Below, in pieces: positions 4,975-58,209 of a stretch of 64,000 nucleotides of DNA. The DNA is from Flavobacteriales bacterium (GTDB taxonomy: Bacteria > Bacteroidota > Bacteroidia > Flavobacteriales_F > PHOS-HE28), in the NCBI GenBank assembly GCA_026129465.1, contig JAHCIA010000001.1:567964-631963 (forward strand), read 5' to 3'. The position numbers and the translations under genes were made by a program. How positions within the stretch are numbered: position 1 is the first letter of the stretch; each line of letters begins with the position of its first letter. Under the pieces are notes generated by a model that was given only the letters and a program-made list of their open reading frames with translations, was not told the DNA's origin and made no database searches.

Positions 4975-5049
4975 GCCTCCTTAGCTCAGCGGTAGAGCAG
5001 CTCATTCGTAATGAGCAGGTCGTCAGTTCAAATCTGACAGGAGGCTCCA
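4975..5049 (+). tRNA. tRNA-Thr (anticodon CGT)
   Basis: Cloverleaf by eye: acceptor GCCTCCT (4975-4981) pairs with AGGAGGC (5039-5045), anticodon stem CTCAT/ATGAG with loop TTCGTAA giving anticodon CGT, T-arm GTCAG-TTCAAAT-CTGAC, discriminator T and an encoded CCA at 5047-5049. It is a stand-alone gene with its own promoter box and a downstream terminator. Confidence 0.96.
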
Positions 5050-56685: not shown

Positions 56686-57228
56686 ATGGAGCTGTACGCC
56701 ATCACCATTGGGGCGCGGGTGAAGCACCCCGCCATGGGCACGGGCGTGGTCCACGACATCGACGACCGGACCGTGCATGTCTTCTTCAAGGACCATGGCG
56801 AGCAGGCCATCAGCCGAAGCTTCCAGGGACTTGAAGTGACCGCGCCCGGACCGGAGCTGCCGGGTGCTGAACTGGACATGGAGGCCGTGGAGGAAGCCCT
56901 GCGGAATGTGCTGGAGCAAATGCAACTGCCCCAACGCCCGGTGGAGATGGCCAGCAAGTACGAAGGGGGTACGCTTGAAATGAAGCCGCGCGACGCCTCG
57001 TTGAAGAGCAAGGAACTGCCCATCGACGCCTTCTTCCACAAGATTGTGATGATCCGCGACCGCTTCCGCGTGCTGGAGCAGAAGATCAACGCGCACCCCA
57101 AGCTGAGCGAACAGGACAAGGTCGAGCTGCAGCAATACATCACCCGCTGCTACGGTTCGCTCACCACCTTCAACATCCTCTTCGAGGACAAGGAGGACCA
57201 CTTCGTGGGGCAAAAGGGGGAGGGGTAG
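56686..57228 (+). CDS. Conserved hypothetical protein (companion of the GreA-like gene)
   Basis: 180 residues. N-terminal 50 residues form a small beta domain (ARVKHPAMGTGVVHDIDDRT, VHVFFKDHGEQAISRSF), like a CarD/SH3-type RNA-polymerase-interacting fold by appearance only. A helical C-terminal half follows (MIRDRFRVLEQKINAHPKLS). I recognise it as a Bacteroidota-specific protein but not its job. Its pairing with a GreA-like gene hints at a link to transcription; that is inference. Confidence 0.7.
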   Translation: MELYAITIGARVKHPAMGTGVVHDIDDRTVHVFFKDHGEQAISRSFQGLEVTAPGPELPGAELDMEAVEEALRNVLEQMQLPQRPVEMASKYEGGTLEMKPRDASLKSKELPIDAFFHKIVMIRDRFRVLEQKINAHPKLSEQDKVELQQYITRCYGSLTTFNILFEDKEDHFVGQKGEG

Positions 57229-57293
57229 GCAGGTTCGCAGGGACGGCCTATCGGGTCGATCGTCGTTTCATCAATGGTACATGAGCGAGCGGG

Positions 57294-57324
57294 TTGCGAT
57301 CCGCGCATCACGGACTTACCTTGG
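57294..57324 (+). promoter_or_regulatory. Promoter driving the queE leader
   Basis: TTG at 57294-57296, 20-base spacer, TACCTTGG at 57317-57324: good spacing for the Bacteroidota consensus. Transcription from about 57331 would give a leader of about 240 bases before queE. Confidence 0.55.
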
Positions 57325-57330
57325 TACCCA

Positions 57331-57573
57331 CGCTCCGTTCTTTCTCAGCCGGCCGGCTGATCATCCCACAGCCCGCACAGGCCACACGTTCTCAAAACCA
57401 ACAGTATTGCCTCAGGGTCGGAAGATCCAAAGGGCTAGGGCGGGCCGCCTCCCTGCTTCGGCAGGGACCTCCCCGGAGGCGTGGCGGATTACCGAAACCT
57501 TTCTGTCCGATCCGCTCATGTGATCCATGGGTTTTTTGAACTCGGTCCTGTGCGGGCTTTCTTTTGCCCCAGC
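57331..57573 (+). ncRNA. Long structured leader (or small RNA) before queE, class unknown
   Basis: About 243 bases with strong hairpins: palindrome CAGCCGGCCGGCTG (57346-57359); CCCTGC-TTCG-GCAGGG (57451-57466) nested inside GCCTCC (about 57447) and GGAGGC (57475-57480). A T-run (GGGTTTTTTG) at about 57529-57538 could be a termination point. I looked for the preQ1 riboswitch signatures expected near queuosine genes and did not see them. It could be an unknown regulator or a separate small RNA. Confidence 0.4.
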
Positions 57574-58209
57574 GTGAACGCTCCAGATCATTCCTCCAAG
57601 ACCGCGACAGAGGCCCGCCTGCCCGTGATGGAGGCCTTCGCCACCATCCAGGGCGAAGGGCTGTTCGCCGGGCAGGCCGCCTGGTTCATCCGCTTGGGCG
57701 GTTGCGATGTGGGCTGCGTGTGGTGCGATGTGAAGGAGAGCTGGCCCATGGACGCGCACCCGCTCAGAGGAGTGGACGACCTGGTGGCGCAAGCCGCACA
57801 GCATCCCGCCCGCATCGTGGTGATCACCGGCGGCGAACCCTTGATGCACGATCTCGGACCTCTGACGGCCGCGTTCACCGCAGCTGGGTTCCGCACCCAC
57901 CTGGAGACCTCCGGCGCGCATCCGCTCAGCGGCACATGGCACCATATCTGCCTCAGTCCGAAAAAATTCAAGGCGCCATGGCCCGGCATCCACAAGGCCG
58001 CGCATGAACTCAAGGTGGTGGTGTTCAACAAGCACGATCTGGCATGGGCCGAGGAACATGCCGCACTGGTATCCCCGACATGCGCGCTCTACCTGCAACC
58101 GGAATGGGCCCGCCGCGATACCATGACCCCCTTGATCGTGGACCACGTACGGACCCATCCACGCTGGCGCATCTCGCTGCAAACGCACAAGTATCTGGGG
58201 ATACCATGA
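57574..58209 (+). CDS. queE: 7-carboxy-7-deazaguanine synthase (radical SAM), queuosine pathway
   Basis: 211 residues if starting at GTG 57574; ATG 57628 is also possible. Bacteroidota QueE usually carries a short lead before LPVMEAFATIQGEG, favouring the earlier start. The radical SAM cluster motif CDVGCVWC (CX3CX2C) and ITGGEPLMHDLGPL with LETSGAHPLSG are present. It turns 6-carboxytetrahydropterin into CDG, a queuosine precursor. Its stop overlaps the next gene's ATG (ATGA), so the two may be coupled. Confidence 0.9.
   Translation: MNAPDHSSKTATEARLPVMEAFATIQGEGLFAGQAAWFIRLGGCDVGCVWCDVKESWPMDAHPLRGVDDLVAQAAQHPARIVVITGGEPLMHDLGPLTAAFTAAGFRTHLETSGAHPLSGTWHHICLSPKKFKAPWPGIHKAAHELKVVVFNKHDLAWAEEHAALVSPTCALYLQPEWARRDTMTPLIVDHVRTHPRWRISLQTHKYLGIP

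Follow-up and report, generated by a model that had tools for sequence, protein, structure and literature searches.

The window, a stretch of 64,000 nucleotides of DNA from a Bacteroidota bacterium, probably one of the Flavobacteriales, very probably carries a single-copy 6S RNA (ssrS) gene at 57330–57565 on the forward strand. This gene lies in the spacer between a gene encoding a 180-aa protein (end 57228) and queE (radical SAM; 57574–58209, forward strand), the start of which is probably the GTG at 57574, or else the ATG at 57627. 6S RNA is regarded as nearly universal; if the assignment is correct, an unannotated global regulator of transcription is placed beside queE, and three Rfam 6S-type families miss the 6S RNA of this genome.

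As we picture it, the RNA would be transcribed from its own sigma-A-type promoter, and the transcript would begin with a short leader, in which a boxA-like GUUCUUU is followed by a small hairpin, and end at a U-run 3' of the closing stem of a long rod. The rod would imitate an open promoter and bind the primary-sigma RNA polymerase holoenzyme, thereby lowering transcription upon nutrient exhaustion; copying of part of the 5' strand of the central bubble by the polymerase would then yield a short pRNA and release the 6S RNA.

Promoter boxes, boundaries and fold of the RNA

Reading of the spacer revealed the two boxes of a Bacteroidota sigma-A-type promoter at 57294–57324 on the forward strand: TTGC at 57294–57297, corresponding to the -33 box, and, after 19 nt, TACCTTGG at 57317–57324, a -7 box of the TAnnTTTG type. 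Promoters of this phylum are described as having TAnnTTTG at -7 and TTTG near -33 (PMC7366714), and TAnnTTTG is reported to span -12 to -5 relative to the start (PMC9723704), from which we place the predicted transcription start at 57329–57330 (forward strand). On the two strands of the 64-kb window together, a relaxed form of the pattern (TTG-N17..20-TAnnTTnG) is found three times; among 2000 dinucleotide-shuffled versions of the spacer, 8 contain it. The promoter that the initial annotation had proposed for these positions is present, and it is of the Bacteroidota type. A sigma-70 scan found no promoter, as is expected in a phylum that uses another promoter type. In all 31 genus loci examined, own locus included, a TAnnTTnG box is present 50–92 nt 5' of the rod.

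The alignment of genus sequences contains two conserved blocks: the -7 box followed by GTTCTTT, and an element of about 190 nt bounded by CAGCCC and GGGCTTT. For the genus, RNAalifold yields as consensus one long rod of 53 pairs, 23 of which show compensatory changes. In the window, this rod (the 6S RNA core) occupies 57369–57562 on the forward strand and folds with a z-score of -4.85, none of 200 shuffles being as good, so that a chance structure was rejected for these conserved boundaries. The hairpin-rich leader of about 240 bases described in the initial annotation is confirmed only in part: 57325–57540, which approximates that leader, is no more stable than expected by chance (z -0.84, a value equaled by 38 of 200 shuffles) because the 3' arm is cut off.

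6S RNAs are described as rods of about 200 nt with a central bubble between the closing and apical stems (PMC8876501), and the same architecture is found here: a rod of about 200 nt with a closing stem, a central bubble with a hairpin on its 3' side, and an apical arm, all on the forward strand. The closing arm comprises 57370–57399 and 57530–57558 in the consensus; within it, the closing stem pairs 57370–57383 with 57544–57558 (99.4% of alignment cells paired, four pairs with two-sided changes), and the inner closing arm pairs 57390–57399 with 57530–57539. The 5' strand of the central bubble (57400–57414) is unpaired in the consensus and is the presumed pRNA template, while its 3' strand (57514–57529) contains the hairpin CAUG-UGAUC-CAUG at 57517–57529 (helix 10; 96.6% of cells paired). 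A small 3'-bubble hairpin has also been described for free B. subtilis 6S-1 RNA (PMC8876501), with which the comparison is by description only. The apical arm (57415–57513) is composed of consensus helices 4–9 and includes an internal loop in which GGCGGGCC (57439–57446) lies opposite GGATTAC (57486–57492), both strands being invariant in the genus alignment.

The terminator-like T-run TTTCTTTT (57558–57565, forward strand) abuts the closing stem on its 3' side, 8 nt short of the start of queE; judging from sequence and alignment, it is the presumed 3' end of the RNA. The T-run that had been reported about 35 bases before queE does exist, as T6 at 57532–57537, 37 nt 5' of the GTG at 57574; however, its residues 57532–57535 pair with 57394–57397 inside the rod, and the terminator-like run is TTTCTTTT.

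The single-sequence fold differs from the consensus in the apical arm: the unconstrained minimum free energy of the window RNA is -91.8 kcal/mol, compared with -77.3 kcal/mol when it is held to the consensus pairs, and the unconstrained structure keeps the closing arm while the apical arm is folded otherwise. When the presumed pRNA template is blocked, the closing stem stays and a short local hairpin is added. A pseudoknot of GGCGGG with CCCGCU across AAAGGG/CCCUUU, weighed by eye, was dropped because the nested consensus accounts for the covarying pairs. Open reading frames of 80–81 aa cross the region (57281–57523 and 57294–57539), and the frame of queE extends without a stop codon back to a GTG at 57481; we rejected protein-coding content and took these frames to be by-products, since conservation tracks the RNA pairs and congeners differ by length changes of one or two bases.

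The initial annotation had suggested a covariance check in related genomes, and there the structure proved to be conserved. In the trimmed genus alignment (22 sequences), 97.6% of the cells are paired and 20 of 50 pairs show two-sided changes, compared with 7.0 in shuffles; among 13 outgroup sequences, such changes are found in 43 of 50 pairs. An alignment of 62 rows, composed of 60 outgroup loci from genomes outside the training set, the window and one antisense row (L197) that was counted, has two-sided changes in 45 of 47 pairs, amounting to 790 cells, compared with 249 after shuffling and no more than 216 when the partners are slid. For each of these three alignments, none of 500 shuffles reaches any of five measures and the slid versions are lower, the outgroup alignments having been fitted to the model structure. 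Furthermore, seven congeners that were unused in model building pair in 343 of 343 cells, in an alignment that was fitted to the model, in which most pairs are invariant and for which a single measure is matched by at most 2 of 500 shuffles.

The same boxes bear on the expression of queE. We found no TAnnTT[TCG]G box in 57100–57640 besides that of the 6S promoter, and thus no second box of this type between the RNA and queE, which makes read-through plausible. The 6S precursor may also carry queE, with read-through past the U-run as the main source of queE mRNA; such an arrangement would supplement the 6S assignment, not replace it. The short distance from the T-run to the queE start is consistent with this proposal, as is the reported transcription of E. 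coli 6S RNA together with ygfA (PMC2848244). However, promoters 5' of 57100 could also drive queE, and we regard the proposal as a serious possibility, though rather more apt to fail than to hold.

Homologs in other Bacteroidota and relation to known 6S families

At the DNA level, matches to the spacer are found in 25 of 98 related genomes: 24 of the 45 genomes of the genus (own included) and one other, where the match is a single stretch of about 30 nt in another family. Two models were built, R1 from 22 genus sequences and R2 from 13 sequences of other genera, the E-values of these home-made models being rough; the sequences of R2 were aligned with R1, so that the alignment, not the sequences, is genus-dependent. 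Both models match 57369–57561 in the window, and in our own genome the window locus is the sole R2 match at E ≤ 0.001 (E 4e-24). R2 matches 151 of 396 genomes of the class, 20 of them in the genus and 131 outside it; we picked the 60 outgroup loci across families from these 131. R1 matches 37 of the 45 genus genomes (two partially, G003 and G022) and has no match in the other eight, and in the same search it matches 5 of 152 genomes outside the genus.

At gathering thresholds, no Rfam family matches the region. Of five matches at E ≤ 10, the one of interest is RF01693 (Bacteroidales-1), an entry that carries the label '6S-Bacteroidales RNA suggested' in Rfam; it scores 13.6 bits in the middle of the rod (gathering 60; E 5.7), a chance-level value, and three families have lower E-values. 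The Rfam search that had been recommended earlier thus provided a lead but no membership. Own-genome searches with RF01693 and with RF00013 (6S; gathering 46.4; E ≤ 10) gave no match, nor did RF01685 (6S-Flavo; gathering 85) when run at E ≤ 1 against 35 genomes of the genus, this one among them. Across the class, RF01693 matched 13 of 149 genomes, with four over the cut-off, and RF01685 matched 5 of 58, with none over it. When Rfam was searched at E ≤ 0.1, RF01693 was found in five of ten loci (one over the cut-off) and RF01685 in one, and nothing was found in the genus locus L025.

The connection to these families is seen with our own model. Applied to 19 outgroup loci, R1 matches the four above-cut-off RF01693 members (L032–L035; 19–29 bits) at the same places, as well as 9 of the 15 other loci; the six missed are L026 (no RNA locus), L031, L041, L044, and L027 and L038, both of which denote the same place in G064. 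Scores of 19–40 bits with R1 are also reached by antisense strands of the rod, and therefore low scores alone carry little weight. The window RNA and RF01693 have in common the rod, the GGCGGGCC..GGATTAC internal loop and the closing stem followed by a T-run, and a TAnnTTnG box lies just 5' of all four above-cut-off members; the window RNA differs in its score, far below the cut-off of 60 bits, and in its longer leader with GTTCTTT. We judge it to be homologous to RF01693 but below the Rfam membership threshold.

In regard to 6S-Flavo, R1 matches three of the five weak RF01685 places (L028, L029 and L030, not L027 or L031), whereas RF01685 itself finds nothing in the 35 genus genomes. At one place in G064 (L027/L038; G064:C1:875172–875320), which R1 does not match, RF01685 and RF01693 overlap, both below cut-off, suggesting that a single family may underlie both models. 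R2 joins Bacteroidales-1 and some of the weak 6S-Flavo matches in one family, and this family shows an E. coli-like synteny with zapA.

In several Bacteroidota families (L238–L257), the 6S-like RNA is located between zapA and rny, which encodes RNase Y. Of 20 picked outgroup regions, 13 have zapA upstream on the strand of the RNA (8–248 nt between aligned ends) and 12 have rny downstream (11–179 nt), zapA having been identified by Pfam PF05164 on seven examples and rny by PF12072 on two. As these regions were picked from the 60 loci after ZapA-like protein ends had been noticed in some upstream sequences, 13 of 20 is no unbiased rate. Of the 13 outgroup loci examined first, two show the arrangement and eleven lack it, and neither gene is near the RNA in any of 12 genus loci tested. 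In E. coli the gene order is zapA-ssrS-fau, and ssrS is reported always to lie 3' of zapA in these operons of beta- and gamma-proteobacteria (PMC7641849). Adjacency to zapA is typical of 6S RNA, not defining. It is possible that zapA, the 6S RNA gene and rny form a unit in which cell division and RNA decay are combined with 6S RNA. Regarding other labels given to neighboring genes at RNA loci, M14 and OmpA have Pfam support, and GreA is without it.

Like E. coli 6S RNA (ssrS; RF00013), the window RNA is a rod with a central bubble, as described in PMC8876501, and its relatives share the zapA-RNA order with a protein gene downstream. It differs in that R2 has no match to the E. coli RNA, that its neighbor is queE, not fau, and that no GYTCTTT is seen, by eye, between E. 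coli zapA and ssrS. In the absence of a match between R2 and ssrS, it is architecture and synteny that connect the RNA to classical 6S RNA. A 6S RNA, which may be the RF01693 RNA, and evidence for its pRNAs have been reported in B. thetaiotaomicron (PMC7366714).

The lack of a detected model-level similarity to classical 6S RNA would also suit a polymerase-associated rod RNA of another class, convergent with 6S, such as Ms1, which is described as structurally related to 6S RNA (PMC9130861). We consider this highly unlikely: zapA synteny as in E. coli and homology to Bacteroidales-1, with its suggested 6S label, argue against it, and the title of the Ms1 paper concerns Actinobacteria (PMC9130861). 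A divergent RNase P, SRP RNA or tmRNA was ruled out because the genes for all three were located elsewhere in our own genome, as were those for 16S rRNA.

Association of the RNA with queE

Within the genus, the RNA and queE are neighbors: queE is in the same locus of about 3 kb in 30 of the 31 genus loci examined (L002–L025, L067–L070 and L072–L074; 37 genus genomes have an R1 match). In one congener (G040, L025), the 6S RNA is away from queE, between unrelated genes, and in the stretches examined around 13 outgroup RNA loci, queE was found in none. Conversely, of the queE loci from named genomes (the best 80 of 584 relatives), only three contain the RNA, all of them labeled Flavobacteriales; L076 and L079 have bit scores identical to those of genus genomes G042 and G035, and L075 is incomplete at its 5' end. 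R1 at E ≤ 1 has no match in the other 77 of these best 80 loci, less than 1 kb upstream of queE being covered in L095, L110 and L130.

The initial annotation had left the choice between an unknown regulator of the queuosine gene and an independent small RNA. These counts do not support the former; the latter is supported by the RNA's own promoter boxes, its closing stem and T-run, its covarying structure and its occurrence away from queE in one congener as well as in other genera. No preQ1 riboswitch had been recognized in the sequence, and riboswitch models, preQ1 included, are likewise absent both at gathering and among the five matches up to E 10; together with the 3 of 80 queE loci and the 0 of 13 outgroup loci, this led us to reject a riboswitch or queE attenuator. 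A cis-acting leader controlling queE, be it a riboswitch, an attenuator or a protein-binding site, would explain why queE is so regularly adjacent in the genus and why 57100–57640 has no other promoter box, but it is scarcely credible for an RNA that is so rare at queE loci, occurs between unrelated genes in G040 and without queE in the outgroup, has no riboswitch match, and is closed by its own ends before a T-run.

The boxA-like leader

Between the predicted start and the rod, GTTCTTT at 57337–57343 (forward strand) fits the seven-letter core GYTCTTT of boxA, with which the gamma-proteobacterial consensus GYTCTTTAANA (PMC5725501) begins. The window sequence GTTCTTTCTCA departs from the 3' part of this gamma-proteobacterial consensus, so that the full motif is absent from the window, and it precedes a 6S RNA, not rRNA. 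The motif is followed by a leader hairpin, UCAG..CUGA, at 57345–57360 (forward strand), in which all four pairs show two-sided changes and 88.5% of cells are paired among 22 sequences, rows L023 and L025 being misaligned there. Of 29 genus loci (own included), 27 have GTTCTTT 5' of the rod, and all 29 have GTTC[AT]T 5–13 nt past TAnnTTnG.

Outside the genus, no other 7-mer is as common as GTTCTTT within 100 nt upstream of the 60 outgroup loci (27 of 60, compared with 0.95 expected from shuffles and 0.6 from the background of 80 queE loci), and it is found in 0 of 60 on the antisense strand. The full GYTCTTTAANA is present in 6 of 60, with 0.02 expected. The motif is missing in some families, for example f2 and f19 (0 of 5 each), and in the 60 nt 5' of the four above-cut-off RF01693 members. 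A TAnnTTnG box is found within 100 nt upstream in only 18 of the 60 loci, so the zapA-linked RNA may belong to a longer transcript, in which the motif would lie where translation ends.

The rRNA locus of this genome (L163) contains three GTTCTTT motifs, at 1208, 1401 and 3341: the first behind a promoter-like TACCTTCG, the second about 100 nt 5' of 16S and the third some 0.3 kb past it. We read the leader motif as boxA-like because it fits the consensus core and has these copies in and around the rRNA genes. NusB and S10 are reported to bind boxA in rRNA leaders, this binding being required for antitermination (PMC10931766). By its resemblance, the 6S leader motif would be a putative site for NusB/S10.

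Tentatively, we propose that a large part of the Bacteroidota transcribes 6S RNA in the manner of rRNA, with a boxA in the leader, or after the zapA stop codon, that would load NusB/S10 and thereby shield the rod from Rho or aid its folding, coupling the 6S level to rRNA antitermination; by our estimate, this proposal falls just short of an even chance. If it is true, the level of a global polymerase inhibitor would be tied to the rRNA antitermination machinery. The boxA-like leader common to rRNA and 6S RNA, its growth-linked counter-regulator, suggests that both rely on one Nus machinery.

A related motif, GTTCATTGA, is present in the RNase P and tmRNA leaders of our own genome (L155, L157), and Nus-type leaders may thus be common to its stable RNAs. 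Elsewhere in the window, on the forward strand, we detected a cobalamin riboswitch (RF00174; 3329–3480; 84.6 bits) and a tRNA-Thr (cgt) gene (4975–5049).
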